Shown here: piece after piece, positions 2,553-21,522 of the stretch
Layout: each line of letters begins with the position of its first letter
How positions within the stretch are numbered: position 1 is the first letter of the stretch
Assembly: GCF_034424545.1 (NCBI RefSeq)
Contig: NZ_CP139971.1
Span: 434,001-498,000 of the forward strand
Reading direction: 5' to 3'
Source of the DNA: Trinickia caryophylli
Lineage (GTDB): Bacteria > Pseudomonadota > Gammaproteobacteria > Burkholderiales > Burkholderiaceae
DNA: 64,000 bases
The notes under the pieces: model-generated
Told to the model about the DNA's origin: nothing
Databases searched by the model: none
Seen by the model: only the letters and a program-made list of their open reading frames with translations
Made by a program: the position numbers and the translations under genes

Positions 2553-3328
2553 GCGGCTATTTCAAAACAAATGTTCTAAAACAACCTCGCGGCGAATGTC
2601 ATCGCTCGGACGATGCCCCCGATAGCGGTCGGCCCGTGGCCGGCAATCGGGATCGCAAACGACCGTGCTGCGTACCGGGCATACGCGAACACGGCCCAAA
2701 AACGACTGGCGAAACGGTATCGAGCCCCGGCGAGCCGCCACGGCAAAGCGTCGGGCAAACAACGAAAACCGTCTGAGTGAACTGCGCGTCAGGTGCGGCC
2801 GGAGATCCGGCACCTGATCCGTATCTCCGGGAGATTGGCGACGCGGTTGCGCGGCAGTTCATACGCACGCGCCTCGCGATGCAAAGACCGCGGCGCAGGT
2901 TTTACCGCGGACGTACAGCACCGGCTAAAAAGGGGAGCGCCGCGCGCATGATAGCGAGCAATCTATGCAAAACGCAATGCCCTTTCGCGATGGTGAGAAC
3001 GAGCGGGACCAGGCCCGCTTCTTCTTTTTTGTGCGAAACGGTGCGCGCAAGCGCGGAGACGCCGCGGCGGCCGGAAACCGGCAAACGTTTCCGAGAAAAC
3101 GTTTCAAACCGGTTGCGCGTGTTTTTCGCGACGGGCCGCGCCGACTTGCCGAACGGCGCCGCATTATAGCGGAAAGCACGGCGGCAACGGGCCGGCCCGA
3201 CCTGGATACATCGTTGGAAAGAAAAGACGTATGCCCTACGCAAAATCGTCGCACGGAAAGGTAAACTCGCCGGCTGATAATACAGACAGGGCTGCGCGAT
3301 GCCCTTATTCACAGTTATCTCAATACGA
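2553..3328. other. Long intergenic stretch, no convincing gene
   Basis: About 775 bases between the TetR promoter and the leader hairpin of the Crp/Fnr gene. Open frames on both strands exist but are Arg/Ser/Pro-rich shadows without plausible ribosome sites. Visible structure: an inverted repeat TCAGGTGC/GCACCTGA with a 13-base loop at 2789-2817, and two AAACGTTT palindromes at 3083-3090 and 3097-3104, spaced 14 bases start to start. This may hold control elements of the R-body island, or decayed sequence. Confidence 0.5.
3083..3104. promoter_or_regulatory. Paired AAACGTTT palindromes
   Basis: Two identical 8-bp palindromes AAACGTTT stand 14 bases apart start to start, separated by CCGAGA. 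They lie 274 bases before the Crp/Fnr start, within otherwise featureless sequence. Repeated short palindromes at regular spacing suggest a protein-binding site. No assignment to a regulator is possible. Confidence 0.3.
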
Positions 3329-3375
3329 CGTTTCCGATGAGTAGTTGCATCGTCGAACAACTACAACCGGAAACG
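3329..3375 (+). promoter_or_regulatory. Leader hairpin ending two bases before the Crp/Fnr start
   Basis: CGTTTCCG (3329-3336) is complementary to CGGAAACG (3368-3375), and inside it GTAGTTG (3341-3347) pairs with CAACTAC (3358-3364), leaving a 10-base loop. The right arm contains the only Shine-Dalgarno-like bases (CGGAAA) before the ATG at 3378. In RNA this would bury the ribosome site, so translation may be conditional. As DNA the same symmetry could instead be an operator. Confidence 0.5.
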
Positions 3376-3377
3376 CC

Positions 3378-4055
3378 ATGCTTTCCATTACCGATGGTCA
3401 CGCGCTACGCGACACCCCGCTGCTGCGGGGGTTGTCGGAAAGACTCGTCGCACATATCGAAAAACATTTGACACCTTGGCCGAAACAGAGAAATCGCTTG
3501 TTATTTTTCAAGGGGGACGCGGAAAATTTCATCGCTTTCGTGCATCGCGGCCACGTTTATCACACCTTGCACGAGCCGGGCGGGCGCGAAATCATTCTCG
3601 ATTACACGTTGGCGGGCGGGCTCGTTGGAGAGAGCGCACTGCTGTTTCCTCACCGCCGCAGCTTTACGGCGCAACTCAGCCCCGATTGCCAGGTGTCGTT
3701 GCTGCATTCCCAGCATTTTGGCCCGCTGCGCGCCGATACCGAATTGATGACGCGGGTTCAGCAACAATTGTGCGGCCGTTTGGAGAAACTCAGCGATTTC
3801 GTCGAATCGGCGTGCCTTTATCGATTGGAAGCGCGGCTCGCGCGCCATCTGCTCACGCGCATGGAAGGCAGCAGCCATCCTGAAGTACGACTGCCCGCCA
3901 ATCAAAGCATCATGGCTGCCATGCTCAACGTGAGCCGACCGCGGCTGAACACACTGCTGCAGCGCTGGCAGCGCGAGGGGCTCATCCGTCCTTGCGCTCA
4001 GGTGCTTCGCATCGAGAACCCCGAGCGGCTTCGGCACATTGCCGCGGAAACGTAA
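3378..4055 (+). CDS. Crp/Fnr family transcriptional regulator
   Basis: A 225-residue regulator with an N-terminal cyclic-nucleotide-binding-type beta-roll (about residues 10-120; FKGDAENFIAFVHRGHV and GLVGESALLF) and a C-terminal winged helix (about 150-215; recognition segment NQSIMAAMLNVSRPRLNTLL, 175-194). The N-terminal cysteine cluster of FNR is absent, so it is not an Fe-S oxygen sensor of that kind. The ligand is unknown. The start was placed at the ATG after the leader hairpin; an upstream in-frame Met at 3345 falls inside the hairpin. It precedes the sigma factor and reb genes on the same strand, so it is the likely entry regulator of the R-body island. Confidence 0.85.
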   Translation: MLSITDGHALRDTPLLRGLSERLVAHIEKHLTPWPKQRNRLLFFKGDAENFIAFVHRGHVYHTLHEPGGREIILDYTLAGGLVGESALLFPHRRSFTAQLSPDCQVSLLHSQHFGPLRADTELMTRVQQQLCGRLEKLSDFVESACLYRLEARLARHLLTRMEGSSHPEVRLPANQSIMAAMLNVSRPRLNTLLQRWQREGLIRPCAQVLRIENPERLRHIAAET

Positions 4056-4166
4056 GCCGCCGTACCGGTATGGCCGGGGCACGCGCACCGGCACGCCCTC
4101 TCTCGCGCCACTGTCTTTCGCTGTTACGCGCGTGACTGCGTTGCGCACTGCGTTACCGCGATTCTG

Positions 4167-4188
4167 GGCCTCCACACACACGGAGGTC
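4167..4188 (+). promoter_or_regulatory. Hairpin occluding the sigma-factor ribosome site
   Basis: CCTCC (4169-4173) pairs perfectly with the Shine-Dalgarno GGAGG (4182-4186), with an 8-base ACACACAC loop; one G-T and one G-C pair extend the stem outward. The Shine-Dalgarno lies 7 bases before the ATG at 4194. This is a plausible translational switch, resembling the one seen before the Crp/Fnr gene. Confidence 0.45.
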
Positions 4189-4193
4189 GCAGA

Positions 4194-4748
4194 ATGACGA
4201 TCACAACACATTCCGAGGATGCCACCTGCTCGCCGGCGATTCAGTTCGATCGCACCTGGAGAGAAATGCACGGAAAGCTCCGGCGCCGCGCGCGGCTGCT
4301 TTGCAAGGGAGACATACATCGTGCCGACGAGCTGCTGTCCGACACGGCACTCAAAGTCCACCTCTATCTGCAGCGTTCGCCCGAGCGCGTAAGGAATCTT
4401 TCGGGCTTTCTCTTTCTCGCACTCAACCATGCGTTTCTCGATTACGCGCGCCGACGAGGCCGGGAAGATCGCGTCATCGAGCGAGATACGCTTTGCGACG
4501 ACGATCGCGTAATCGAAATCGCGGACCACGCACCGCCGGCCGAGCACCAGATTTTACTCAAGGAGCAACTGGCGCAAATGCAGCACGCTTTGTCGATGCT
4601 GACGCCGCAGCAGCAAGCGCTCTTTGCGCTCAAGTTCGAGGAAGACCGCCCCTATCCGCAAATCGCAGCCGTACTCGGCATCAATGAGACGCTCGCGCGC
4701 AAGCGCGTCGAACTTCTGCGCAAGAAGTTGCGACAGCAACTAGGCTGA
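4194..4748 (+). CDS. RNA polymerase sigma-70 family (ECF-like) factor
   Basis: A 184-residue two-domain sigma factor. Region 2 spans about residues 25-88 (RRARLLCKGDIHRADELL, FLALNHAFLDYARRR) and region 4 about 130-182 (MLTPQQQALFALKFEEDRPYPQIAAVLGINETLARKRVELLRKKL). No anti-sigma factor is adjacent. A FecI-type sigma factor controls the reb cluster in Pseudomonas aeruginosa (established), so this gene, 103 bases before the first rebB, is probably the dedicated activator of the R-body genes (inference). The GGAGG ribosome site is paired into a hairpin. A GC-rich 8-bp inverted repeat at 4768-4797 separates it from rebB. Confidence 0.85.
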   Translation: MTITTHSEDATCSPAIQFDRTWREMHGKLRRRARLLCKGDIHRADELLSDTALKVHLYLQRSPERVRNLSGFLFLALNHAFLDYARRRGREDRVIERDTLCDDDRVIEIADHAPPAEHQILLKEQLAQMQHALSMLTPQQQALFALKFEEDRPYPQIAAVLGINETLARKRVELLRKKLRQQLG

Positions 4749-4767
4749 ACGCTTCACAAGGGCCGCC

Positions 4768-4797
4768 CCGCCGCGTTCTTCAATACACGCGCGGCGG
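4768..4797 (+). other. GC-rich hairpin between sigma gene and first rebB
   Basis: CCGCCGCG (4768-4775) and CGCGGCGG (4790-4797) form an 8-bp stem with a 14-base loop. No T-run follows, so it is not a classical terminator. It could be an attenuator or processing site that sets the ratio of sigma factor to structural protein. Confidence 0.35.
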
Positions 4798-4851
4798 AGC
4801 ATCCCGGAACCCGCCGTTTTTATCAACCCCATGCCGTACCCAGGAGTCGTC

Positions 4852-5088
4852 ATGGCAGACAACACGCCCGTCAACGGACAAATCACCGATGCCGTCACCC
4901 AGACCAACGTCAAAGTTGTCGCGGAGGCACCTGCTCAAGCCATTGCCTCGCTTTATCAATTGGCAAGTCACTCGGCCGGCCTGTCGCTGCAAAACGCCGT
5001 TCACAGCCAGCAGGCGCTCAATCAGATTTCGAGCGCCGTGATATCGAAGGCTGTGACGATGATCATGTCGATCGGCGAGAAAAACTAA
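4852..5088 (+). CDS. rebB: RebB family R-body protein (short form)
   Basis: A 78-residue small structural protein of the RebB (killing trait) family. It carries the family core NGQITDAVTQTNVKV, then a small-residue helix (AEAPAQAIASLYQLASHSAGLSLQNA) and a QQALNQ stretch, the pattern of the three 107-108-residue RebB proteins at 11255-12306, but it stops about 30 residues earlier. RebB proteins polymerise into R-bodies, hollow coiled ribbons that unroll and disrupt membranes. The start ATG at 4852 follows CAGGAGTCGTC; an upstream in-frame Met at 4831 lacks a ribosome site. It is followed after 25 bases by a longer Reb-like gene. Confidence 0.88.
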   Translation: MADNTPVNGQITDAVTQTNVKVVAEAPAQAIASLYQLASHSAGLSLQNAVHSQQALNQISSAVISKAVTMIMSIGEKN

Positions 5089-5113
5089 AGCCGTGTGAAA
5101 GGAGACGCCTGCC

Positions 5114-5803
5114 ATGAGCCTCAAGGACTTCTTCAGCGGCAAGACTTCCGCCGCCGCGCCGGCGGCAAGCGGCACGCAAGCCCAGGCCGGCGATGCCGCT
5201 CCCACGCCCGCGGCACCGACCACCGCCGGCAGTGGAGGCGATAGCGCCGCCGGCACTGCAAGCACCGGAAGCACTGCAGGCACCGGAAGCACTGCAAGCA
5301 CCGGAAGCGCTGCAGGCACCGGAAGCACATCGACCGCGCCGCCCAGCACGTTGAGCGGATTCACGGCGCAGATGAGCAATACGCCCGGGCCCCAGGCAAC
5401 CGATGCGCTGAACAGCCAGATCCTTCAAGCGGTTCAGACAGCCAACAGCGAGACGGCGGCGTATGCGGCCAACCAGATCGCGGTCGGCCCCAACATGATG
5501 ATCACGCAGGCAGGCGGGCTCGTGGCACAGTCCGCCGCAAACTACTTCGACGGCGCAAGCAAGCTGGCCTTGGCCAGCAAGAGCGTCTTGCTGAAAAACA
5601 TGACGGAAAAGCTCGTTCAGCAAGACATAAAAGGTGCGGCCGAAGATGCGCTGGGCGTGCTCATCACCGACCTGCTCGTCGGCACCGCGGCCGCCGTTGC
5701 CGCGGCGGCCGGCGCGATCGAGGGAGAAGCGGCTCACTTCGCGCTGGACAAGATCGACCAGAGCCTCAATAAATACCAGGCGCTGCTCGACAAGAAGGGC
5801 TGA
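5114..5803 (+). CDS. Divergent long Reb-like protein with low-complexity N-terminus
   Basis: A 229-residue protein in three parts. Residues 1-90 are rich in Ala, Gly, Ser and Thr and include STAGTG-type hexapeptides encoded by four 18-bp repeats. Residues 99-165 (starting LNSQILQAVQTANSE) follow the spacing of the RebB core N-x-Q-I-x2-A-V-x3-N, with small-residue helices and a YFDG turn. The tail has a hydrophobic Ala/Val/Gly segment (183-201) and a charged helix. It has no signal peptide. A good AAAGGAGA ribosome site precedes it. I infer a specialised R-body subunit or end-cap; the Reb assignment is from motif spacing only. Confidence 0.6.
   Translation: MSLKDFFSGKTSAAAPAASGTQAQAGDAAPTPAAPTTAGSGGDSAAGTASTGSTAGTGSTASTGSAAGTGSTSTAPPSTLSGFTAQMSNTPGPQATDALNSQILQAVQTANSETAAYAANQIAVGPNMMITQAGGLVAQSAANYFDGASKLALASKSVLLKNMTEKLVQQDIKGAAEDALGVLITDLLVGTAAAVAAAAGAIEGEAAHFALDKIDQSLNKYQALLDKKG
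5252..5323 (+). repeat. Four tandem 18-bp repeats inside the Reb-like gene
   Basis: Units at 5252-5269, 5270-5287, 5288-5305 and 5306-5323 share AGC-CTGCA-GCACCGGA with alternating A/G at one position. They code for Ser/Thr/Gly/Ala hexapeptides. Being in phase, changes in copy number would lengthen or shorten the linker without a frameshift. Confidence 0.8.
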
Positions 5804-5836
5804 GCGGGCAGCCGCACCGAACTCGCGAATGCAGAG

Positions 5837-6640
5837 ATGATGTCCATGCTCATCAACTTCATTTCGTTGCCTTCCAGCCTGCAGATCGTCGCCTGGTCGG
5901 GCTTCGGAGTAGGCATGACCTTCGCCGGCAAAATCGCGGTCCGCAAGATTGCCCCGCGCGAGCAGGCGCACGCGCACAACGGCGAAGTCGGAACGATCAT
6001 GGCCGTCGGCGGCGTGTTCTACGGGCTCATCATCGCCACGATGCTCGTGCGCGCCGTCACGCACTTCGACGCCGCTGTCGATGCCACCCAGCACGAAGCC
6101 ACGCGCGCAGCCGCATTTTATCGAACCGCCGTAGAAGGATCCGCTGAGCTTGCGCGCCGCGTTCAAGCACCGCTGCTCGAGTATCTGCGCGGTGTCATGC
6201 GTGACGAGTGGCCGCGCCAGATGCGCGGTCTGCCGATCGAGCCGGCCGCACCGCAACTGGCCACGCTGAGCACGGTGCTGCGAGACTACGATCCCGCCAC
6301 GCCAAAGCAGGTCGCCTATCTGCAGCAAACACAGGTGCAGCTCAATCAGCTTTACGCCGCGCGGCATGCGCGGCTTGCCAATCTCGACACGACGATTCCC
6401 GAAGAAATCTGGATCATCAACCTGCTTGGCGAACTGATGCTGATTCTCTTCGCGTGGATGATGCATATTCCACGCAAGTCGCTGCACCTCGCACTCGTCG
6501 CGGGACTCGCGATCTCGATTTCGATCGTGCTGGCGGCCACGCTTATCTATGACACGCCCTTTTACGGCGACATCGCCGTATCGGAGGCGCCCTATCGCCA
6601 CGCTGCGGACAACATTGCGGATTCGTCGCTTTCGTATTGA
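5837..6640 (+). CDS. DUF4239-like (bestrophin-like) membrane protein
   Basis: A 267-residue inner-membrane protein with two hydrophobic segments near the N-terminus (about 5-30 and 50-75), a long soluble stretch rich in Ala, Arg and Gln (75-190) and two C-terminal segments (about 193-212 and 218-243, then YDTPFYGDIAVS). Length, topology and the NLLGELMLILFAWMMH helix match DUF4239/bestrophin-like proteins, whose role is unknown; relationship to anion channels is only suggested. It follows the Reb-like gene by 33 bases on the same strand. It could assist release of R-bodies, but nothing in it proves that. Confidence 0.6.
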   Translation: MMSMLINFISLPSSLQIVAWSGFGVGMTFAGKIAVRKIAPREQAHAHNGEVGTIMAVGGVFYGLIIATMLVRAVTHFDAAVDATQHEATRAAAFYRTAVEGSAELARRVQAPLLEYLRGVMRDEWPRQMRGLPIEPAAPQLATLSTVLRDYDPATPKQVAYLQQTQVQLNQLYAARHARLANLDTTIPEEIWIINLLGELMLILFAWMMHIPRKSLHLALVAGLAISISIVLAATLIYDTPFYGDIAVSEAPYRHAADNIADSSLSY

Positions 6641-6723
6641 ACGCCGCGCGCTTCACAACCGCACGGCACGCGCGTTTGTAAGTGTGTCATCCGCCGCACC
6701 CGCCATCAAGCCCGTTCACCGCC

Positions 6724-7128
6724 ATGTCCTCGCCGAACGAAGAGCCGAACGCAGCCCTATCGAAAACGAGCCTGCCCAGCCCCGTTGGGCAGTTGGGAAA
6801 GAGCCCGGTTCATCTGCTCGCCGCCATCGTGACTGTGGCCATGGACAAGCTATGGGACATGCTGCTGCTCGACATGGGAAAGGCGCTTCCGCCGTACGAG
6901 AAAGCGCGCTTTTACCTCGGCGCCGGCATGGTGTTGCTGATCGCCACCACCATCAGCACCGCGCTCACGCAGCACTGCATCGAGAAAGACCCGCTCGGCA
7001 TGGCACTCGCCAAGGGCGTGGCAATGGGCATTCTTGCCGGACTGCCCTATTCGTTCAGCACGACCGAAATGGGATTGGTGTTCATAGGCTGGTCCGGCAT
7101 CAATGAATTGCAAAAGGTGAAGAAGTAG
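6724..7128 (+). CDS. Small multi-pass membrane protein of unknown function
   Basis: A 134-residue protein with a polar N-terminus (about 1-27) and hydrophobic segments near 29-47, 63-83 and 93-115, ending in a charged NELQKVKK tail. Short length, two to three membrane spans and a basic tail resemble holins, but no holin family is recognised. The start is the ATG at 6724; an in-frame Met 14 codons earlier would give a Cys/His/Pro-rich start without a ribosome site. It lies between the DUF4239-like gene and the PHB depolymerase, 29 bases before the latter. Confidence 0.55.
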   Translation: MSSPNEEPNAALSKTSLPSPVGQLGKSPVHLLAAIVTVAMDKLWDMLLLDMGKALPPYEKARFYLGAGMVLLIATTISTALTQHCIEKDPLGMALAKGVAMGILAGLPYSFSTTEMGLVFIGWSGINELQKVKK

Positions 7129-7157
7129 CGTCAGGAACTCTTTCAGGAGAACAGAAC

Positions 7158-8231
7158 ATGCGACTGCTGCAAGCCCGCTCCCCCAATCTCGTCAAATTCA
7201 TGCTGGCCGCGCTTGTGGCAGGCCCGCTCGCCGCGTCTGCCACATCTGCCGCGCCGCCGCTACCGCCGCTCGCCGCCGACGCGAAACAAGTGACCGTATC
7301 GGGTCTGTCGTCGGGCGCATTCATGGCAGGGCAGTTCGGTGTAGCCTACTCGGCATCGATCGCGGGGGTAGGCATCGTTGCCGGCGGACCATTTTATTGC
7401 GCGGGCCTCGGTAGCCTCTCCGGCTCCGAGCGCTTTCTGACGACTGCAACGACGCAATGCATGCAGCCGCCGGGGCCGGCGCCTTCCGCGGCTGCCGCGT
7501 GGAAAGCCGCACAGCAGTTTGCGGCCGAAAAGCTGATCGACCCGGTGGACAACATCAAGCGCCAACGCCTTTACGTCTTCACAGGGGCCGCCGACAGCAT
7601 CGTGCTGCCGAAAGTCGTGGCGCAGACGCGGGACTTTTATCGCGACGCAGGGGTGCCCGATCAGCAGATCAAGTACGTCGACAATGTCAACGCCGGGCAC
7701 GCGTTCATTACCGCGAACGACAAAGATCTGAAATGCGCCGCCAACGCCGCGCCGAATCTCAACAATTGCGGGTTCGTGCAGTCGCACGAAATTCTTCGGC
7801 AGTTGTACGGCGTTCTGAACGCGGCGGCCGCCAAGCCCAGCGGAGAACTTGTCGATTTCGATCAGACCGAATTCACGCGAGGCGCCGGCTACACGGGCCT
7901 CTCGGATGTCGGGCATGCGTATATCCCCGCCGCGTGCCGGACGGCGAGCTGCCGCGTTCATGTGGTCTTTCACGGCTGTACGCAGGAGGATGGACGCATC
8001 GGCAATCGCCTGTACACCACCACCGGTTACAACGAGATAGCCGATAGCAACCGTATTGTCGTGCTCTATCCGCAGATTCGCACCGACCCCGCCCGCAACC
8101 CGCAAGGCTGCTGGGACTTCTGGGGATACAGCAGCAAGGATCCCGCGCACCCGACGTTTTACACGAAGGACGCGCCGCAGATGTCGGCCGTGTACGCAAT
8201 GATCAGGCGCCTTCTCAGCCCCCGCCAATGA
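7158..8231 (+). CDS. Secreted PHB depolymerase family esterase
   Basis: A 357-residue alpha/beta hydrolase. Residues 1-31 are a signal peptide (basic start, hydrophobic core, Ala-rich end). The nucleophile motif GLSSG is at 49-53 (Ser51), the acid candidate is in FTGAADSIV, the His in NVNAGHAF, and the oxyanion segment VVFHGCTQ comes late, as in poly(3-hydroxybutyrate) depolymerases. Paired Cys residues suggest disulfides outside the cytoplasm. The start follows CAGGAGA. The stop overlaps a possible ATG of the next gene, a phasin-like protein. Its place inside an R-body locus is unusual. Related esterases in this family can act on short esters or aromatic substrates instead. Confidence 0.82.
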   Translation: MRLLQARSPNLVKFMLAALVAGPLAASATSAAPPLPPLAADAKQVTVSGLSSGAFMAGQFGVAYSASIAGVGIVAGGPFYCAGLGSLSGSERFLTTATTQCMQPPGPAPSAAAAWKAAQQFAAEKLIDPVDNIKRQRLYVFTGAADSIVLPKVVAQTRDFYRDAGVPDQQIKYVDNVNAGHAFITANDKDLKCAANAAPNLNNCGFVQSHEILRQLYGVLNAAAAKPSGELVDFDQTEFTRGAGYTGLSDVGHAYIPAACRTASCRVHVVFHGCTQEDGRIGNRLYTTTGYNEIADSNRIVVLYPQIRTDPARNPQGCWDFWGYSSKDPAHPTFYTKDAPQMSAVYAMIRRLLSPRQ

Positions 8232-8242
8232 AAGGAAAAGCA

Positions 8243-8794
8243 ATGAGTACGCAAACCTCGCATACGCGCACCGGTTCGGAACCGAATGGCTGGTCCGCCT
8301 GGTCATCGATGCTCGATCTCGCGCTCTCACGCGTGCCATCGGCCACCCAATGGAAGCAGGCGGCCAGCGCTCTTCTCGACGCGAACCAGCAATTGAGCGA
8401 ACGTATGCAAGCGACCCAGCAACAGTGGCTGAGCGAATGGCATGAGCGTGCCGACACGCCGGGGTTCGTGGAATTCTGTCGGCAATGTGGCGATACGAGC
8501 CACGAGCTTTCAAAGCGGCTGATAGATTGGCAACTGCAAGGCACCGCACAGTGGCGCAGCCAGGTCTATGCCTTGACGGCCCAATTGCTCAGCTCGCGTG
8601 GAGAAGGCGACAACCTGCTGGCGTTATGCGCCGCTCAGCAAGCGGCGAGAAAACAATGGGACGAGCAGGGCGCTGCGCTCGCGCAATGGTTCGGCGGCGT
8701 CTCCCCTGCGTTCACGCAATGCTTGCAGCTTTGGCTCGACAGCGGTGCCGACGCTTCCCTCGTTCCACAGGCGGCCGCCGATCGGCCGGGCTGA
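8243..8794 (+). CDS. Phasin-like / PHA-granule-associated protein candidate
   Basis: A 183-residue Gln/Ala/Trp-rich, almost wholly helical protein with no signal peptide or membrane segment. The pattern of amphipathic helices (ALLDANQQLSERMQATQQQW, CAAQQAARKQWDEQGAALA) is like phasins, which coat polyhydroxyalkanoate granules, though no family motif is certain. The chosen ATG at 8243 follows AAAGGAAAAG; an ATG at 8228 overlaps the depolymerase stop by 4 bases and would add five residues. Coupling to the depolymerase supports a link with storage polymer. It could also be an R-body assembly protein. Confidence 0.5.
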   Translation: MSTQTSHTRTGSEPNGWSAWSSMLDLALSRVPSATQWKQAASALLDANQQLSERMQATQQQWLSEWHERADTPGFVEFCRQCGDTSHELSKRLIDWQLQGTAQWRSQVYALTAQLLSSRGEGDNLLALCAAQQAARKQWDEQGAALAQWFGGVSPAFTQCLQLWLDSGADASLVPQAAADRPG

Positions 8795-8912
8795 AAGATC
8801 GCTGATGCATGCGCACGCACAAGCCGCGGGTAGATCGACCCGTTCGGCTCGTCGCGTGCGTTGCTGGCGAACATGAAAGCGTCTTCCGCGGTATTGAAGC
8901 CCGTGAGCGGCA

Positions 8913-9500
8913 TCAAGGTGCACTATATTTCGGGTTATTTTCGATGAACACGCCAACATTCGATGAATATTCCGCATTGTATTCAAAGCGGACATTTTCT
9001 ATTCCGATCGTCGAACTCAGGTAATACCGCTTCTTGCCGTAATATTCACGCATACACGGTTCGATCATGACGCGATTCCATTTGTCATAGCAGGCATTGA
9101 TAGTCTGAGAAATCGGGATCTTTACGCCATACGCAAAGCCATGTTCATCGTACCGTGCGGCCTCCGTTCCGTGCTTTCCCTCGCGGAATTTGACGCCTTC
9201 GAACTGCGCCGTGTAGCTGCCCCCGCTCTGCCCCTCTACCACCGTGCAGGTGATCGTGTACTTACCCTCGCCGCCAGCAAGAAGAGGCTGTAACGGCACT
9301 TCGACGGCACCCTCCACCTGCTGTCCCTGAACGGTGGTGTGCCGCGAGGCGATCCCGGCTTGCTCGGAAAGGCATTGAATGGAACCAAGAGCCCCCGTGA
9401 CGCCCTTGCCGAGCACGAAATCGATGGATGGCTTCGCGCACGCGGCCGCGCTCACACCCATTGCCGTCAAACCGATTGAAATTGCCGCCGTTAGATTCAT
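8913..9500 (-). CDS. Secreted protein of unknown function
   Basis: A 195-residue protein read against its neighbours. Residues 1-22 look like a signal peptide ending near AAACA. The mature part has four or more Cys, Tyr-rich stretches (REYYGKKRYYLSS, FEYNAEYSSN) and beta-rich composition, consistent with a periplasmic or secreted small beta-domain protein. The gene is visibly lower in GC than the genes on either side and is flanked upstream by AT-rich DNA, suggesting separate acquisition. An ATG with GGGAGG upstream (minus strand) supports the start. No family is recognised. Confidence 0.65.
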   Translation of the reverse strand: MNLTAAISIGLTAMGVSAAACAKPSIDFVLGKGVTGALGSIQCLSEQAGIASRHTTVQGQQVEGAVEVPLQPLLAGGEGKYTITCTVVEGQSGGSYTAQFEGVKFREGKHGTEAARYDEHGFAYGVKIPISQTINACYDKWNRVMIEPCMREYYGKKRYYLSSTIGIENVRFEYNAEYSSNVGVFIENNPKYSAP

Positions 9501-9821
9501 TAAACCTCCCTATCCTCAATATCATCGTTTAACCAACGCCCCTCGGAACGAGGCAGGCCATCACGCATCACAACACAAGACACAACCACCCCGTAAATCA
9601 ATCATAAAAATCTAGCACAACTCTAATTGCCATTAAATTTATATAAGCTATACCAGAATAATTCACTTACAACGAACGCCAAGCCCGCTTGACGGCCCGC
9701 GTACCCCGGCCGTCGAGCGGGCCGTTCCCCGTTCGTTTCTCACCACGAGCATCGCGTTTTCACAAGAGGCTACGAATCGGCGTCCCTTTATCACCGTGAC
9801 TCAGCCAAGGAGATACGCCCC
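9501..9821. other. Intergenic control region before the lysozyme gene
   Basis: About 320 bases between the divergent secreted-protein gene and the lysozyme gene. Around 9595-9665 it is AT-rich (TATATAAGCTATACC), a likely promoter zone for one or both. A strong nested inverted repeat at 9671-9737 follows. No further gene is seen. Confidence 0.5.
9671..9737. repeat. Nested inverted repeat (cruciform-like)
   Basis: GCCCGCTTGACGGCC (9683-9697) pairs with GGCCGTCGAGCGGGC (9708-9722) over 15 positions with one G-T, leaving a 10-base loop. Outside it, AACGAAC (9671-9677) pairs with GTTCGTT (9731-9737). No T-run follows directly. It may insulate the upstream promoter from the lysozyme gene as a terminator, or serve as a binding site. 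Confidence 0.55.
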
Positions 9822-10262
9822 ATGAAAACGAACCAAGCCGGCCTCGCCCTCATCAAGCAATTCGAGGGGCTGCGCCTCATCGCCTATCAGGACGTAGTCG
9901 GCGTTTGGACCATCGGATATGGACATACGGGATCGGACGTGACCCCCGGCCTCGTCATCACGCAAAGTCAGGCCGATCAGATGCTGTGCGGCGATCTTGC
10001 CGGCTTCGAGACAGGCGTGTCGAAGCTCGTCACGGTTGCCCTCAACGAAAACCAGTTCTCGGCGCTCGTCAGCTTCAGCTACAACCTCGGGCTCGGCAAC
10101 CTCGGCAGCTCGACACTGCTGCGGCTTTTGAATGCGGGCGACTATCAGGGCGCCGCCGCGCAGTTCCCGCGCTGGAACCGGGCGGGCGGGAAGGTGTACG
10201 ACGGGCTCACGAAACGCCGGCTTGCGGAGCAGGCGCTGTTCGAAACGCCCGTCAGCGCGTGA
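9822..10262 (+). CDS. T4-type lysozyme (glycoside hydrolase 24)
   Basis: A 146-residue muramidase that cuts peptidoglycan between N-acetylmuramic acid and N-acetylglucosamine. The catalytic triad Glu15-Asp24-Thr30 has the same 9 and 6 residue spacing as Glu11-Asp20-Thr26 of T4 lysozyme (IKQFEGLRL, YQD, WTIGYGHT). The phage-typical ends SFSYNLGLGNLG, LLRLLNAGDYQGAAAQFPRW and GLTKRRLAEQALF are intact. It has no signal peptide, so it would need a holin-like pore or leakage to reach the wall. No phage structural genes are nearby; it sits between two blocks of reb genes, which suggests a role in host lysis and R-body release (inference). AAGGAGA precedes the start. Confidence 0.93.
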   Translation: MKTNQAGLALIKQFEGLRLIAYQDVVGVWTIGYGHTGSDVTPGLVITQSQADQMLCGDLAGFETGVSKLVTVALNENQFSALVSFSYNLGLGNLGSSTLLRLLNAGDYQGAAAQFPRWNRAGGKVYDGLTKRRLAEQALFETPVSA

Positions 10263-10364
10263 CGGTTCACGCCCGCCGCGTGCCCGCGTCCTACGAATGA
10301 GCCTTGCCGACCTGCCGTCGCCGGGGCTGTCGACATTTGCCAATCATCACCCAGGAGAGAAGCC

Positions 10365-10565
10365 ATGCAAGAAGAACTGAACAGCCTGCACGAGGTTGCC
10401 TCGAAGCTGCTGAGCAATCACCTCGGCAATTGGGCCAACGCCGTGACGAATGCGACGGCGGGCCACGACGACAGCAAGTTTCTCGGCGTCGTGCATGCAT
10501 TGCTGTCGATCCGCAGCGCATTGGCTCCGCTCGTGAGCCAATCGCAGGACAGCAGCCATGGCTGA
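10365..10565 (+). CDS. Small protein of unknown function in the reb island
   Basis: A 66-residue cytoplasmic, helical protein (EELNSLHEVASKLLSNHLGN; FLGVVHALLSIRSALAPLV) preceded by CAGGAGAGAAGCC. Its end overlaps the start of the next gene by 8 bases, implying coupled translation. No family is recognised. Size and context suggest an R-body assembly or accessory factor. Confidence 0.6.
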   Translation: MQEELNSLHEVASKLLSNHLGNWANAVTNATAGHDDSKFLGVVHALLSIRSALAPLVSQSQDSSHG

Positions 10566-11172
10566 CGAAACGCTCAACCCTGGATTGCGCCGGATTGCCG
10601 AGCAGTATCTGAATCGCCCGCTGCAACCGGACGAGGAGGCGCAACTGGCCAAATTCCAGCAGGGGTTCCAGCGCCAGCCGGGGCCTGCTTCGAGCGCTCC
10701 GCAGCAGGCCCAGCAACAAGCGCAGCAAGCAGTCGCCCAGGCACGCACGCGCGCGGGTACGGGCATGCGCGGCATTCTCGAGTCGATTCAGGCGAGTTCC
10801 ACCAAAGCGCTGCAAGTGCAGGAAAAGGAAGAGCAGGCCATCTTGAAGCTGCTCGAGAGCTGTAGCTCGCTCGCTGAGCTGCGCCCGTCCACCCTGCAGC
10901 CCGGAATGTCGGGCCTGCAGCCGGGCACGCGTCTCGCGCTCACGCAGATTGCCGAGCATCTTTCGAATCTGGCCCGGCAGGAGGTGGAGAACTGCTTCAA
11001 CCAGACCATCGGGCCGCTCGTGTCGCAGCTGCAGGCACTCATCCAGCGTCTTGCCGAAGAAGACGCGCAGCGTGCGGCGGCGAATGGCCAGGCCACGGCA
11101 CAAGCTGCCGCGTCGAGCTCGCCGGCACAGGCCTCCACTGACGTTCACGCCGGAAGCGGTCAAGCGTCCTAG
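10558..11172 (+). CDS. Helical Gln/Ala-rich protein of unknown function
   Basis: A 204-residue protein without signal peptide or membrane span. It begins with a compact MADETLNPGLRRIAEQYL segment, then a Gln/Ala-rich stretch (about 44-65), long amphipathic helices with coiled-coil character (78-105 and 125-175) and an Ala/Ser/Gln tail. It overlaps the 66-residue gene upstream and lies 82 bases before the rebB trio. Low-complexity Gln/Ala helices resemble scaffolding or polymer-binding proteins. No function can be named; an R-body assembly factor is the best contextual guess. Confidence 0.6.
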   Translation: MADETLNPGLRRIAEQYLNRPLQPDEEAQLAKFQQGFQRQPGPASSAPQQAQQQAQQAVAQARTRAGTGMRGILESIQASSTKALQVQEKEEQAILKLLESCSSLAELRPSTLQPGMSGLQPGTRLALTQIAEHLSNLARQEVENCFNQTIGPLVSQLQALIQRLAEEDAQRAAANGQATAQAAASSSPAQASTDVHAGSGQAS

Positions 11173-11254
11173 CAATAGCACACCGGGTGCCGACGGACCT
11201 GACGGATGGCGCTTCTTCCGTGTGCATCGTTATCAATCTGAACAGGAGCAACTC

Positions 11255-11578
11255 ATGAGCTTTCCGACCTCGGTCAACGACCAGATCACCGATGCCGTGA
11301 CGCAGTCGAACGTCAAGGTGCTGGCCGAATCTCCGGCCATGGCACTCGGCTCGATGTACCAGACGATGGCGCATTCGACGGGCGTGCTGTTCGAGAACGC
11401 CATCTCGGCGCAGCAGCAGCAAAACACGCTGACGCAAGCCGCAACGAACATGGGCGTCATGCAGATCTACAGCGTCGATACGATGGCGGGTGCCGCCGGC
11501 ACGGAAAAGGTCTCGCAAGGCGGCATTGCCGATAACCTGACGAGCCTGATGACGGTGCTGCAGTCGTTCCGCCGCTAA
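11255..11578 (+). CDS. rebB: RebB family R-body protein
   Basis: A 107-residue RebB-family subunit starting MSFPTSVNDQITDAVTQ, after AACAGGAGCAACTC. The core DAVTQSNVKVLAESPAMALGS is followed by the amphipathic MAHSTGVLFENAISAQQQQN and a C-terminal half ending LTSLMTVLQSF. It is the first of three consecutive paralogs. An in-frame open frame extends upstream through the previous gene but is not coding there. Confidence 0.93.
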   Translation: MSFPTSVNDQITDAVTQSNVKVLAESPAMALGSMYQTMAHSTGVLFENAISAQQQQNTLTQAATNMGVMQIYSVDTMAGAAGTEKVSQGGIADNLTSLMTVLQSFRR

Positions 11579-11607
11579 AAGCCGTATCGACCTACGGGAG
11601 ATAGACA

Positions 11608-11934
11608 ATGGCTCACAACACGGATGTCAACAGCCAGATCACGGATGCGGTCACACAGGCCAACGTCAACGTGCTCGCGCAAAGCCCGGCGATGGCGATG
11701 GGCTCGATGTTCCAGACGATGGCTCATTCCACCGGCGTTTTGTTCGAGAACACGATTTCGGCCCAGCAGCAGCAGAACACGCTCTCGCAAGCCGCCGCGA
11801 ACACCGGCGTCATGCAGATCTACAGCGTCGACACGATGGCCGATGCCGCGAGCACCGAAAAGGTCAGCCAGGCCGGCGTGTCCGACAACCTCGCGAGCCT
11901 GATGACGGTGCTGCAAAGCTTCCAGAACCGCTGA
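11608..11934 (+). CDS. rebB: RebB family R-body protein
   Basis: A 108-residue paralog of its two neighbours: NSQITDAVTQANVNVLAQSP, then MFQTMAHSTGVLFENTISAQ and a tail ending LQSFQNR. Differences from the first copy are spread along the protein, so the copies are diverged subunits and not a recent duplication. The ribosome site is CGGGAGATAG. R-bodies of Caedibacter need more than one Reb protein, so the set probably co-assembles (inference). Confidence 0.93.
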   Translation: MAHNTDVNSQITDAVTQANVNVLAQSPAMAMGSMFQTMAHSTGVLFENTISAQQQQNTLSQAAANTGVMQIYSVDTMADAASTEKVSQAGVSDNLASLMTVLQSFQNR

Positions 11935-11979
11935 GCGCGCAATCGCCTACGCTAATCAAGTCAACTTAGGAGAACAGCA

Positions 11980-12306
11980 ATGACGTTTCCCACTTCCGTC
12001 AACAACCAGATCACCGACGCCGTCACGCAATCGAACGTGAAAGTGCTCGCCGAGGCACCGGCGATGGCGATGGGCTCGATCTACCAGACGATGGCCCATT
12101 CGACCGGCATCCTGTTCGAAAACGCCGTCTCCGCGCAGCAGCAGCAGAACACGCTGGCCCAGGCCGCCGCCAACCAGGGTGTCATGCAGATCTACAGCAT
12201 GAACACGATGGCCGACGCGGCCGCAACGGAAAAAGTCTCGCAGGGCGGCGTCGCCGACAATCTGACGAGCCTGCTCACCGTGTTGCAAAGCTTCCAGAAC
12301 CGCTGA
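11980..12306 (+). CDS. rebB: RebB family R-body protein
   Basis: The third 108-residue paralog, starting MTFPTSVNNQITDAVTQ after TTAGGAGAACAG. It is most like the first of the trio at its N-terminus (FPTSVN-QITDAVTQSNVKVLAE) and the second at its C-terminus (LQSFQNR), which suggests past recombination between copies. It is the last gene before a strong terminator, closing the plus-strand run of the island. Confidence 0.93.
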   Translation: MTFPTSVNNQITDAVTQSNVKVLAEAPAMAMGSIYQTMAHSTGILFENAVSAQQQQNTLAQAAANQGVMQIYSMNTMADAAATEKVSQGGVADNLTSLLTVLQSFQNR

Positions 12307-12357
12307 GCGCCGCGCAAGGATCGCCCCTGCGAAACCGGCCCGCCACGGGCCCTTTCA

Positions 12358-12393
12358 AGCCCTGCACGCGCCCCGTTGCAGGGCTTTTTTTTT
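12358..12393 (+). terminator. Rho-independent terminator of the reb operon
   Basis: AGCCCTGCA (12358-12366) pairs with TGCAGGGCT (12377-12385) around a 10-base loop, followed by an unbroken run of nine T. This is a textbook intrinsic terminator 52 bases after the last rebB. It isolates the structural genes from the convergent kinase gene. Confidence 0.93.
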
Positions 12394-12447
12394 GCACTTC
12401 GACAACGCATGAGAGTGGGCCGACGATCATCGTGCAAAGCAGATGGA

Positions 12448-13575
12448 CTACCCGCGCGCGCGGCGCGGCAGACGCACGACGAACACCGTCTCCGTCCGAT
12501 CGGAGCGGACGTCGATCGCGCCGCGGTGGGCCTTGGCGATTTCGCTTGCGATATAGAGCCCCAGCCCCAGGCCGTCGTTGCCGCGGGTCTTGTCCGGCCG
12601 CCCGGTGCCGCGCTGGAGCGGCTCGAAGATGCGCTCCAGCGTCGGCCCGTCGATGGCGGGACCGCGGTTCCGGACTTCGATGCGGACCTCGGCGTCGCCC
12701 CCTGCCACCACCACGCCAATCGGCATATCCGGCGCACCATATTTGATGGCATTGACCACCAGGTTGCTGAGCAATTGCTGCATACGCTGGCCGTCCCAAG
12801 TCCCTCGCGTGTCGCCCCGCACCTCCAGATCGATCCGGCGATCGGGATAAACGGCGCGCAGTTGATCGACTTCGTCGGCCAACACCTGCGCCAGATCGAT
12901 GTCGCGAGGCACGATGTTGATCCCCAGCCCCAACTTCGTTCGATTGAAATCGCACAGATCATCGAGCAGGCTTTGCATGCGGGCACCGCTCCTGATCAAC
13001 CGGGCGGCGGCATCCGACACGTCCCCCCCTGCGTTCAGCGCCGCGAGATACGATGCGGTCATTTGAATCGTTTGCAGCGGGCTTCGCATATCGTGGCCGA
13101 GCATGCCGAGCAACAGGTTGCGAGCCTGTTCGACCTGTTCGTTGAAAAAGGCGACAGATTCCGCCAAGGCTTGATCGATGGCTTCATTGAACCGGATCAT
13201 GTCGTCCTGATTCGGGGCCTCCGCCCGACACTCGTCCATCCACAAGCGCAGCACACTGGCACGCAGCGCACGATACTCGGCGGCCATCTGGTTGATGGTG
13301 AAACCGCTTCGCGCTCGCAGCAGTGCATGTGTCTGCGCGGCCGTTTCCGGGGCGTCGACCGCCTTGGGCGCGCGCCCCCGGGATTTTTCCCGTTGCGCTT
13401 CCAGCGTTTGGGGCGTGGATATGTCCTTGGCCACAGCTTCGAGAATCTGCCGTGCGTGGTCACGCAGGGCGGACGCGCTCATTCTTCCCGCACTCGGCAA
13501 AAGCGTGGCCGCAAATTCGTCCCATTGTGCGAGGATAGGCTCGATATTTCGCACGATGAAATCTGCTAATCGCAT
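12448..13575 (-). CDS. Orphan sensor histidine kinase with RsbRD-like N-terminal domain
   Basis: A 375-residue soluble kinase. Residues 1-140 are helical and resemble the RsbRD N-terminal sensor domain of stress-response proteins (LADFIVRNIEPILAQWDEFA; AAEYRALRASVLRLW). The HisKA box is LLGMLGHDMRSPLQTI with the phospho-accepting His at 161; the ATPase domain has N-box NLVVNAIKYG, a F box (IFEPLQRG) and GLGLGLYIASEIAKAH. No membrane segments and no response regulator lie beside it. It converges on the reb operon across the terminator and may set R-body expression through a distant regulator (inference). Confidence 0.85.
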   Translation of the reverse strand: MRLADFIVRNIEPILAQWDEFAATLLPSAGRMSASALRDHARQILEAVAKDISTPQTLEAQREKSRGRAPKAVDAPETAAQTHALLRARSGFTINQMAAEYRALRASVLRLWMDECRAEAPNQDDMIRFNEAIDQALAESVAFFNEQVEQARNLLLGMLGHDMRSPLQTIQMTASYLAALNAGGDVSDAAARLIRSGARMQSLLDDLCDFNRTKLGLGINIVPRDIDLAQVLADEVDQLRAVYPDRRIDLEVRGDTRGTWDGQRMQQLLSNLVVNAIKYGAPDMPIGVVVAGGDAEVRIEVRNRGPAIDGPTLERIFEPLQRGTGRPDKTRGNDGLGLGLYIASEIAKAHRGAIDVRSDRTETVFVVRLPRRARG

Positions 13576-19291: not shown

Positions 19292-21522
19292 TCGAGGCGC
19301 CCCAGCCATCGTTGAAGGAAGACCGACAGCGCGACGAGCGCCACCCCTATTGCCATCAGCGTCGCCCAAGCGCCGCCGCCCGGATGGCGGATCGCCGCGA
19401 GCAATTGATGCGCGAACGTGACGGTGAGCACGATACCCGGCAGCATCCCGAGCATCGTCCCGATCAGATAATCGCGCAGGCGGATATGCGACGCCCCCGC
19501 GACGAGGTTGACAACGGTGAACGGCGCGATCGGCAAGAGCCGCAGCACCATCATCGTGACGATCCCGCGCTTGCTGATGCGTTCGCTGAGCCGATTCGCC
19601 TTCGCCCCCGCAAGCCGGCGCACGGCGTCGCGCCCGAGCGTCACGCCGATACCGTAGGTGGCTGCCGCAGCGAGCAAGGTCCCGCCCAGCGCATAGGCCA
19701 TTCCGGGCCATGCACCGAATACGAGCCCCGTCGCCGCGATCAGTACGGTGATCGGCACGGACAAGACGGCCGCGACGACGTAGCCGCCCAGTACGATCAG
19801 CGGTGCGAGCGGCAGCGCCCCGATGCGTTTTCCCCAATGCACGAGCGAGGCGAGGTTCAGGTGGTCTCCCAGCGCCGTAAAACGCCATAGCAGTGCGAGA
19901 ACGACGACCCCCAGTACGAGCGCACCCAACAGCACAAAGCGCGCCCTCAACGATTTGCTGTGTTCCTGCGGCACGAACTCGCGCACGAGCGCGTCCGGCT
20001 CGACGGGCTGCTCGGGGTCGAGCCATGCGCTGACCGGCACGATCGCATCGACCTCCTTCGTCGTCGCAGGCGCGAAGGGCCGCAGGGAACGGCCGGTCTC
20101 GCGCGAGAGCGCCCCGATCGCCGCATGAAGGCCGCCCATGCCTTCGATCGCGCGTTCGACGTCGCCCACGCCCACGTCGAGATGCTCCGCCAGCAGCCGG
20201 TCGCGGCATCGGGCAATGGCCGCATGCACGCGCGCGTCGCCGTTCGCATCGATGGCGATGTTGCATTCCGTGTCGAGCACCATCGACCGGTTGTTCAGAT
20301 TCGCGCTGCCGATCGTCATGAGCCGGTCGTCGACGATCATGACTTTGCTGTGCACATTGAGGCACCCGTCGCCGAGCCCGTCGATGTGCGGGCAGTACAT
20401 GCGATAGCGGCCGTGGGCGTCGGCGCCGGTCAACGCCTGATGCTGCCGCGCGCGCAAGACGCCCATCGTCGCCTCTTGCAGCCAACCGCTTTGCATCCGC
20501 GGCACCACCACGGCGATGTCCGGGCCGTTCGGCTCGCCGAGCCGGGCGGCCAGCGCCTCGCGTACCACAGCGGCCGTGAAGTACTGATTCTCGATGTACA
20601 CATGGCGACACGCGGCGGCAATGAAATCGGCCGTCAATGCGCGCACCTGCTGCAACGGCGTGCGGCCCCGGTGCGGCGGCTCGGTCAACGACACGCCTAT
20701 CACCACGTCTCGAAGGTCGATGGGCGCCTCCGGCGGCCACGGGTCGCCGTCCTCGCTCAACGCGCGATCCGCACGGATGGCGATGCGCTTGCCGCACGAG
20801 CGGCGCCAGCGCTCGCGCGCAAGCTCGCCAATGCCGCGCGCCGCATCGCCGTCGAACATCGCCTGTACATCGTGAAACGGGCCGTACACCGTGCCGTTCG
20901 GGTCGCGCCTGCGCGGGTCCGCGGCGGCGTGCTCGGGAGTGTCCCAACGCGAGCGCGTGAGGTCGAGCCCGCCGACGAATGCGAGCCGGTCATCGATCAC
21001 CACGAGCTTCTGATGATGCGATCCGCCGCGCGGATGCATGCCGTCCAGCCGAAACACGAGGCCGCGATGAGAGCGCCAGCCCGTCTGGTAGACCGGCATC
21101 CATTCGCGCTCGAACGCGTAGATCATCGCGAAGTCCCAGGCGAGTATGTATATGCGCAGGCGCCGCCGCGACACGGCCAGTGCCTGCAAGAACTCGCCGA
21201 GCGGCTCGGGGTAGCCGTCATGCGCGCCTTCGGGCACCAGCTTCATCCGGCTGTTGATATCCCATCCGACGATGAAGATCGTTCGCTCGGCGCGTATGAG
21301 CGCCTGCCTCAGCGTTGCGAAATAGGACTGCGCATCGATCAGAACGCTGAAGCGATCGGCGTGCAGGATCGAGCCGCAGTTGCGGCCAACCTCGAGCAGC
21401 CCGTGCCGCTCGATACCCGTCGTACGCTCCGAGTCCGGAAGAGGCTCTTGCGCTCGCGCTCGCGTCTTGCCGCGCTCGCGCGTCGGCAACGGGGCGTGAG
21501 CGACCCCGGTCGGCGCTCCCAT
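19288..21522 (-). CDS. Phospholipase D-like protein fused to a VTT (DedA-type) membrane domain
   Basis: A 744-residue fusion. The N-terminal 500 residues carry two HKD motifs, HHQKLVVIDDRLAFVGG (His170, Lys172) and HSKVMIVDDRLMTIGSAN near residue 400, the two halves of a phospholipase D/cardiolipin-synthase-type active site. Around 530-555 begins a membrane region that continues into a VTT/DedA domain (LSVPITVLIAATGLVFGAWPG; RLLPIAPFTVVNLVAG), a family implicated in lipid scrambling or transport. Enzyme and membrane domain in one chain suggests phospholipid remodelling at the inner membrane. It overlaps the endonuclease-family gene by 4 bases and starts 10 bases from the end of the SDR gene. 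Confidence 0.88.
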   Translation of the reverse strand: MGAPTGVAHAPLPTRERGKTRARAQEPLPDSERTTGIERHGLLEVGRNCGSILHADRFSVLIDAQSYFATLRQALIRAERTIFIVGWDINSRMKLVPEGAHDGYPEPLGEFLQALAVSRRRLRIYILAWDFAMIYAFEREWMPVYQTGWRSHRGLVFRLDGMHPRGGSHHQKLVVIDDRLAFVGGLDLTRSRWDTPEHAAADPRRRDPNGTVYGPFHDVQAMFDGDAARGIGELARERWRRSCGKRIAIRADRALSEDGDPWPPEAPIDLRDVVIGVSLTEPPHRGRTPLQQVRALTADFIAAACRHVYIENQYFTAAVVREALAARLGEPNGPDIAVVVPRMQSGWLQEATMGVLRARQHQALTGADAHGRYRMYCPHIDGLGDGCLNVHSKVMIVDDRLMTIGSANLNNRSMVLDTECNIAIDANGDARVHAAIARCRDRLLAEHLDVGVGDVERAIEGMGGLHAAIGALSRETGRSLRPFAPATTKEVDAIVPVSAWLDPEQPVEPDALVREFVPQEHSKSLRARFVLLGALVLGVVVLALLWRFTALGDHLNLASLVHWGKRIGALPLAPLIVLGGYVVAAVLSVPITVLIAATGLVFGAWPGMAYALGGTLLAAAATYGIGVTLGRDAVRRLAGAKANRLSERISKRGIVTMMVLRLLPIAPFTVVNLVAGASHIRLRDYLIGTMLGMLPGIVLTVTFAHQLLAAIRHPGGGAWATLMAIGVALVALSVFLQRWLGRLE

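Follow-up and report, generated by a model that had tools for sequence, protein, structure and literature searches.

A lysozyme and depolymerase cassette shares a promoter-like element with R-body genes in an extended reb locus of Trinickia caryophylli

A 64,000-nucleotide stretch of the Trinickia caryophylli genome (contig NZ_CP139971.1, positions 434,001 to 498,000; hereafter the window, numbered from its first letter) carries an R-body island at 3378-12306. Its genes, all on the plus strand, are in order crp, sigma, rebB1, HP229, a bestrophin-like gene, mem134, phbD, phas, lys, s66, HP204 and rebB2-4. The core of this locus, in which Reb genes are joined to a sigma factor and a Crp-type regulator, is known; what is new, as a unit, is its extension by lysozyme and depolymerase genes that share a promoter-like element with the Reb genes, and this much is well supported. 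That the lysozyme/depolymerase cassette truly belongs to the R-body locus and is regulated with it is very probable, and the whole is best explained as an extended locus of the Group 2 type in which R-body genes and a release set form one regulon. A further reading, to which we assign a probability of about 0.5, is the release mechanism set out below. The extended island is a plausible release device, in which the lysozyme would serve to free R-bodies or their cargo. The interest lies in how R-bodies leave the cell and with what cargo, the toxin being described as unidentified or unknown in the literature (PMC7297999; PMC8322103; these and the other papers are cited from excerpts of their text). 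A lysozyme under an R-body promoter-like element offers a concrete and testable release mechanism.

What ties the extension to the Reb genes is a short bipartite element. It was first seen by eye as TTCACA...CGT(C/T)C upstream of several units in the window and in three related loci (L005-L007), and the pattern TTCACR-N15/16-CGTYY was then tested. The island region (3200-12306) has six sites on the plus strand and none on the minus strand, against a mean of 0.06 and a maximum of 2 in 300 dinucleotide shuffles. These sites lie at 3308-3333 (spacer N15; 44 bp before crp), 4753-4778 (73 bp before rebB1), 6652-6677 (46 bp before mem134), 9759-9785 (spacer 16; 36 bp before lys), 10266-10291 (73 bp before s66) and 11144-11169 (85 bp before rebB2 and overlapping the last part of HP204). 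An element of two parts that is strand-specific, close to gene starts and present before each unit is the arrangement of a sigma regulon with a shared promoter. The whole window has nine matches (shuffle mean 0.67; none of 100 shuffles had as many) and the whole 6.59 Mb genome, which is assembled in two contigs, has 77, compared with 39 for the pattern read backwards. The three remaining window matches (58644, 61182 and 61959) fall within long open reading frames (ORFs) far from the island and may be chance occurrences.

The element was then followed through related loci. One genome per species was scanned with the four RebB proteins. From the 513 relatives obtained, only the 80 best, which come from 78 loci (L005-L082), were kept, so the sample leans towards close relatives of these proteins. 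The 78 loci contain 146 forward and nine reverse sites, while five scrambled patterns gave 0-11 per strand; seven of the nine reverse sites stand approximately 80-125 bp before a minus-strand crp match (L018, L020, L021, L027, L034, L036 and L054). At least one forward site is present in 61 of the 78 loci. Counting sites within 220 bp of a gene, and dropping genes too close to a contig end, the element is upstream of any rebB gene in 51/78 loci, of s66 in 9/9, of mem134 in 8/11 and of crp in 13/37; for rebB1 it is found in all 13 loci with a rebB1 match of at least 90 bits, the remaining loci being dropped. It is rare before genes internal to a unit (phbD 0/11, phas 0/12, bestrophin-like 0/6, HP204 1/35, HP229 2/61, sigma 2/55) and in random stretches of the same loci (90/4000). 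The motif may mark the reb sigma regulon in general and, being present upstream of rebB in 51 of 78 loci, could be usable for finding further members.

The lysozyme gene follows phas by 10 to 186 bp in nine loci and HP229 by 36 bp in L014; where it is parted from phas, as in the window and in L009 (a gap of 384 bp), it has a site of its own. Across the 11 lysozyme loci a site heads the preceding mem134 operon in eight, the lysozyme itself in L009 and the rebB1 unit in L014. A membrane/depolymerase operon and a lysozyme that carry or follow the rebB-type motif are found inside R-body islands of several bacterial families. In the window the island is not a single transcript, because the minus-strand gene sec195 (8913-9500) lies between phas and lys; the plus-strand run that a sequence-only reading of this DNA had described holds for the genes it listed but is interrupted there. 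Independent transcription of the extra genes, which that reading had named as a point that would speak against it, is not supported either, since the same promoter-like motif stands at each unit.

Promoters read by extracytoplasmic function (ECF) sigma factors typically have a pair of short boxes and a CGT in the second of them. The motif has the form expected of such a promoter, and the island appears to encode such a sigma factor, which, together with the Crp-type regulator, would recognize it. Given the common motif before crp, rebB1, the mem134 operon, lys, s66 and rebB2, the release genes and the R-body genes probably share one switch. A consensus scan of 3000-12700 found no sigma-70 promoters. 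A RebR-type palindrome, for which the window has 23 matches when one mismatch is allowed, is not clearly enriched (shuffle mean 16.6, with 7/100 shuffles as many).

How widespread is the extension? Window proteins were compared with the 78 loci by tblastn (E 1e-4). Relatives of the core are frequent (HP229 in 63 loci, sigma in 56, crp in 39, HP204 in 35) and those of the extension less so (phas 12, mem134 11, phbD 11, lys 11, s66 9, bestrophin-like 7), s66 being 48-73% identical in its nine loci. Some or all of the extension occurs in 12 of the 78 loci, from Paraburkholderia tropica (two), Trinickia terrae, seven Chromobacterium species, Chitinimonas and a Pseudogulbenkiania metagenome-assembled genome. 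Nine of these have the full order mem134-phbD-phas-lys-HP204-rebB on a single strand, with gaps of -1 to 32 bp (mem134-phbD), -23 to 95 bp (phbD-phas) and 10 to 186 bp (phas-lys). The other three are variant or incomplete: C. vaccinii (L046) is without lysozyme, the Chitinimonas contig starts at phas and the blocks of Pseudogulbenkiania are rearranged. The window flanks that were tested, a kinase and a dihydrodipicolinate synthase-family gene, are not beside the island in any of the 12. Conservation of gene order across families, with the common motif, places the island beyond chance, and by these comparisons the extension is a conserved minority subtype of the reb locus. The possibility that related reb loci consistently lack the extra genes, raised as a test by the earlier reading, is accordingly not what was found, and the cassette is at the same time confined to a minority.

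In wider genome samples, RebB was found in 6/399 sampled genomes of the order, in 41/398 sampled Burkholderiaceae genomes and in none of ten genomes of the same genus. Among the Burkholderiaceae mem134 is present in 3/41 RebB-positive and 0/357 RebB-negative genomes (Fisher p 0.001), the RebB and mem134 searches having the same genome number and showing the same handles; the three positive genomes are that of the window and those of T. terrae and P. tropica, the latter two already counted above. The ratio of nonsynonymous to synonymous substitution (dN/dS) is 0.02-0.42 for 11 island genes against T. terrae and for ten of these against P. tropica, a rough estimate as synonymous sites are near saturation in several genes, and one that covers genes other than rebB1-3.

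The lysozyme (lys, 9822-10262, plus strand) matches PF00959 (4.5e-51), and residues E15, D24 and T30 are invariant in 12/12 aligned copies. We take these to be the catalytic triad of T4-type lysozymes, and family match and residues together assign the protein to the T4 type (glycoside hydrolase family 24, GH24). The window copy has no hydrophobic stretch and for that reason looks like a cytoplasmic endolysin. Phage holin-endolysin cassettes commonly contain a GH24 endolysin that is cytoplasmic and without a signal. The window shares this signal-less enzyme with them but has no recognizable holin or spanin, and the gene sits in an R-body island. T4-type lysozyme matches were obtained in 1,921 of 50,697 phage records. 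The idea that the cassette lysozymes are a domesticated clade was rejected, as a tree of 127 rows does not show one.

The membrane/depolymerase operon is predicted to comprise three genes in the window. The first, mem134 (6724-7128, plus strand), encodes a membrane protein that is small and helical and whose family is rare: a profile found 39 proteins in a search of 5.8 billion sequences, among candidates sharing exact words, and the relatives for which a genus is given belong to Chromobacterium, Paraburkholderia, Trinickia or Chitinimonas. It had no family match in scans of Pfam, NCBIfam and PHROGs, and an AlphaFold2 model predicts four helices (predicted local distance difference test, pLDDT, 62). 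The second, phbD (7158-8231, plus strand), scores 381.5 bits against the NF050059 model of type-2 extracellular short-chain polyhydroxyalkanoate (PHA) depolymerases (cut-off 280) and aligns with the solved polyhydroxybutyrate (PHB) depolymerase 2d80 (5.5e-38). Its GLSSGAF, GAAD and NAGH motifs line up with 2d80, are kept in all 12 aligned copies and presumably supply the Ser-Asp-His catalytic triad, and its N-terminus is hydrophobic and signal-like by hydropathy; model, motifs and predicted export signal point to a type-2 extracellular PHA depolymerase.

The third gene, phas (8243-8794, plus strand), encodes a helical protein of 183 residues that is weakly phasin/PhaE-like. The window protein itself has no Pfam match. 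PF09361 (E 0.004) and PF09712 (E 0.039), both PHA-granule families, lead the sub-threshold matches, each in 2/17 members. Profile comparison with eight phasins was negative, as was that with RebB; in a ranking among 10,110 ORFs one host phasin came second among unrelated ORFs (E 0.75), and the weak structure model found no fold match in the PDB at E <= 0.001. Identification as a phasin was rejected, the PF09361 cut-off not being reached and the profile comparison being negative, so that of the "phasin-like protein" recognized earlier the helical character stands and the phasin affiliation remains sub-threshold. Two PhaC-type synthase matches and three phasin-family matches elsewhere in the genome indicate that the host probably makes PHB.

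What could these proteins do beside R-bodies? In the release mechanism proposed here, the island sigma factor with the Crp-type regulator would read the motif, and when R-bodies are switched on the cytoplasm would fill with lysozyme while the depolymerase was exported. Having neither signal nor membrane anchor, the lysozyme would be unable to reach the wall alone. An unrolling R-body could pierce the inner membrane and let it out, a role like that of a phage holin, after which the cell would burst and free the R-body, its cargo and PHB granules, and the depolymerase might then digest the granules or another polyester. In P. aeruginosa no more than 0.26% of cells express rebP1 (PMC8322103), which fits a self-sacrificing minority. 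The make-and-release device suggested by the sequence-only reading would be consistent with this scheme. The most specific form of this scheme is offered tentatively: R-bodies of this subtype may be a mechanical holin in a small subpopulation, with one sigma regulon, a ribbon that admits the lysozyme and a timed burst, accompanied by an exchangeable slot for payload.

Several observations weigh against this mechanism. The cassette is missing from 66 of the 78 reb loci, which implies that R-bodies do not generally depend on it, and C. vaccinii (L046) keeps the remaining cassette genes without the lysozyme. In Caedibacter low pH triggers R-body unrolling and so prompts lysis, with no lysozyme named (PMC8322103, in the excerpted text), which counts against a lysozyme being necessary. 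The motif was chosen by visual inspection of the window and of L005-L007 (14 forward sites in these three loci); the independent test, with the three excluded, gave 132 forward sites in 75 loci. A site within 220 bp of the lysozyme gene itself is present in just 1/11 loci, L007 is without a site before mem134, and read-through to the lysozyme from units headed by the motif is suggested by spacing. Recognition of the motif by the sigma factor is likewise putative. The cassette lysozymes do not form one clade (11 label changes in the 127-row tree, with 182/500 shuffles as low), and many Chromobacterium lysozymes are 69-79% identical to the window copy, the genomic contexts of these and other non-cassette lysozymes in the tree not being known. 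The structure models of mem134 and phas are of low confidence, and the role of the depolymerase is the weakest part of the proposal.

The depolymerase leads to the most serious rival, which we consider improbable while rating it above the others: a carbon-mobilizing module in which PHB breakdown pays for the very large polymer of the R-body, while loosening of the wall by the lysozyme lets the cell accommodate or reshape itself around the R-body without lysis. The host probably makes PHB, and mem134, phbD and phas stay together even where the lysozyme is elsewhere (L014) or lost (L046), so the trio need not serve lysis. Set against this are the signal-like N-terminus and extracellular family of the depolymerase, from which contact with granules in a living cytoplasm would not be expected, and the nature of the lysozyme, since a free cytoplasmic endolysin would be an unlikely wall-remodelling enzyme. 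A classical phage-type lysis, with mem134 as holin and the lysozyme as endolysin freeing the R-bodies, is less probable again. The protein is small, helical and in the membrane, and 2/40 relatives match a holin PHROG at a best, sub-threshold E of 0.0058, yet mem134 accompanies phbD, is kept where the lysozyme is lost (L046) and stands apart from it in L014. Its model has no viral fold match at E <= 0.001, the outgroup relative P0037 has no relative in phage records, and there is no spanin family among the PHROG matches of ten island proteins scanned. The weak model, the lack of a viral fold match, the sub-threshold PHROG match and the association with phbD in L014 and L046 led us to set aside mem134 as a probable holin.

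It is also conceivable, with rather little weight, that the enzymes themselves are delivered, R-bodies pushing lysozyme and depolymerase into a protist, a plant cell or a neighboring bacterium. R-bodies have been characterized as devices that deliver an unknown toxin (PMC7297999), and relatives have other enzymes in the variable position next to the RapA-like gene; neither enzyme is tied to the R-body itself, though, and a lysozyme would seem to have no obvious target in eukaryotes. Least probable of all is that the lysozyme, the depolymerase and their partner genes travel as passengers, partly remnants of a prophage and partly metabolic genes, moved by horizontal transfer of the island. T4-type lysozymes are common in phages, and the cassette lysozymes are scattered in the tree. 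RebB is also matched by a PHROG family whose function is unknown (E 3.7e-17), which places Reb-like proteins in some viral sequences. Against this stand the common motif, an order kept across families, retained active-site residues, low dN/dS and the confinement of mem134 to RebB-positive genomes in the sample, and RebB had no match in the phage records searched. As mem134 also had no match in plasmids, an origin of the island from a phage or plasmid was rejected, though with the PHROG match to RebB on record.

The core of the island has a clear precedent. Raymann et al. (2013; PMC3583457) described "Group 2" reb loci with Reb genes, two hypothetical proteins of approximately 205-220 residues, a sigma-factor protein and a cyclic-nucleotide-binding regulator. 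The window is alike, with several RebB genes linked to a sigma factor (HP2.3) and a cyclic-nucleotide-binding regulator (HP2.4), while its proteins of 229 and 204 residues are matched to HP2.1 and HP2.2 by size and co-occurrence with reb only. The lysozyme, depolymerase, mem134, phas and s66, all present in the window, are not named for Group 2 loci in the excerpted text of that paper. A 2026 survey of Reb proteins describes synteny of Group 2 with S4 (rapA-like) genes in Burkholderia and other genera, to which HP229 of the window would correspond, and left out neighbors without Reb homology, sigma factors included (PMC13430693). The sequence-only reading was right that RebB proteins with sigma control are known from other loci, the core having been described in 2013 (PMC3583457); its claim that the combination is undescribed stands for the extension, which the reb literature examined does not mention, and falls for the core of Crp-type regulator, sigma factor and reb genes.

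Two other systems invite comparison. The reb cluster of P. aeruginosa PA14 comprises rebP1P2, rebD, rapA, rcgA and fecI2, and activity of the rebP1 promoter depends on FecI2 as well as on RcgA (PMC8322103). A cluster-encoded sigma factor and transcription factor and, probably, a RapA-type protein are common to both; R-bodies have been shown in PA14, and neither lysozyme nor depolymerase is mentioned in the text of that study. A FecI2 motif has been derived (PMC4362757). The reb operon of Azorhizobium caulinodans is similar in that the Crp-Fnr activator RebR is encoded with four reb genes, and differs in being repressed by PraR, with sigma factor and lysozyme not mentioned in the text (PMC5527310). 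Lysozyme is mentioned in none of the main texts of PMC3583457, PMC13430693, PMC8322103, PMC5527310 and PMC7297999, and no publication that links R-bodies to a gene for a lysozyme or a PHB depolymerase was among the matches listed, which cover open main texts, with subscription papers, figures and supplements outside.

Between HP229 and mem134 lies a slot that holds different genes in relatives (L005:3903-5318, L006:3774-4754, L007:3824-5239, L008:2513-3544, L010:1549-2949, L011:2137-3000, L013:4344-5225, L015:1460-2665 and L025:4577-5461). That of P. tropica encodes a patatin-like phospholipase (PF01734, 7e-18); T. terrae and C. sphagni have a related pair with PEY, KHRK and EICFE motifs, which we take to be nitrilase-like; C. 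alticapitis has a HELRH (HExxH) protein and C. amazonense a weakly glycosyltransferase-like one (E 0.00045, below cut-off). Further slot proteins make up one family of three members, L014 and L046 are without a slot gene, and the slot of the window holds the bestrophin-like gene alone. G+C content sets the slot apart in six Chromobacterium loci with a slot gene (0.34-0.42 vs 0.60-0.66 for the locus) and in T. terrae (0.53 vs 0.66). In P. tropica it is 0.67-0.68 against 0.64-0.65, equal to or slightly above the locus, so foreignness by this measure is not upheld there.

Comparable genes follow the RapA-like gene in other reb loci. A family of 711-793 residues stands after HP229 in 14/78 loci (Lysobacter, Dyella, Luteimonas and Pseudomonas mangiferae; e.g., L029:6454-8709), with no Pfam match for the L029 and L023 members and no NCBIfam match for that of L029. 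The Inquilinus loci (L068:7181-8914 and L069:7132-9024) have instead a protein with HAE and PCxxC motifs, presumably deaminase-like; the L068 copy has no NCBIfam match. Of 45 proteins from slot positions and nearby, at most three have a Pfam match at 0.001. From position and variability one might guess that the slot genes are payload. The variable slot would then supply candidate payload genes and be a place to search for the long-sought R-body toxins.

The remaining features of the island agree largely with what had been called earlier. The four RebB genes are confirmed by PF11747: rebB1 (4852-5088, 78 residues, 9.8e-27), rebB2 (11255-11578, 1.1e-27), rebB3 (11608-11934, 8.8e-25) and rebB4 (11980-12306, 1.8e-28; identity to a relative from another genus reaches 96%). 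All four are plus-strand genes and together the only RebB matches in the host genome. Family matches likewise bear out the PHB depolymerase, the T4-type lysozyme, the Crp/Fnr-type regulator, which is HP2.4-like (crp, 3378-4055, plus strand, 225 residues; PF00027 and PF13545), and the ECF-like sigma factor, which is HP2.3-like (4194-4748, plus strand, 184 residues; TIGR02937, 66 bits, cut-off 42.9). The two membrane proteins announced are indeed present, as mem134 and the bestrophin-like protein of 267 residues (5837-6640, plus strand; PF14023, 2.3e-46). The earlier inventory was sound for the genes it listed and missed two, the conserved s66 (10365-10565, plus strand, 66 residues), which recurs in reb loci, and sec195.

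HP229 (5114-5803, plus strand, 229 residues), previously read as a divergent Reb-like gene, is there and has a relative in 63/78 loci. It has a low-complexity N-terminus and a conserved C-terminal part; neither it nor HP204 (10558-11172, plus strand, 204 residues) has a Pfam match above cut-off. HP229 would be RapA-, HP2.1- or S4-like, and HP204 HP2.2-like.

The closing terminator has also been substantiated, as a terminator-like hairpin at 12357-12386 followed by a T run (to 12393, plus strand) with a folding energy of -21.5 kcal/mol (z -2.2; 5/200 shuffles equally stable). It was absent from the output of a consensus terminator scan, and a loop longer than 8 is the probable reason. The sec195 gene (195 residues, minus strand) encodes a secreted-protein-like product outside the conserved unit. 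With its hydrophobic N-terminus, G+C content of 0.544 against 0.610 for the island and no counterpart in the 78 loci by tblastn (E 1e-4), it is read as a putative local insertion.

Facing the island is the histidine kinase (12448-13575, minus strand, RsbRD_N domain) that had been counted with it. Strand and position are correct, and the gene is a bystander outside the conserved unit, with one weak relative (28% identity) in the 78 loci by tblastn. An empty site in the RebB-less congener G417 was not demonstrable, since at the DNA level the kinase is the sole part of the window with a match in the 12.6 kb compared there, and the upstream TetR gene, whose best matches in ten other genomes are 28-38% identical, gave no ortholog useful for an empty-site test. 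In G417 the kinase relative is 70% identical and lies in a different gene neighborhood. Farther along the window, ARAGORN calls an 88-nt tRNA-Ala at 20753-20840; no Rfam family reached its cut-off in 1-22000, and the call is probably false.

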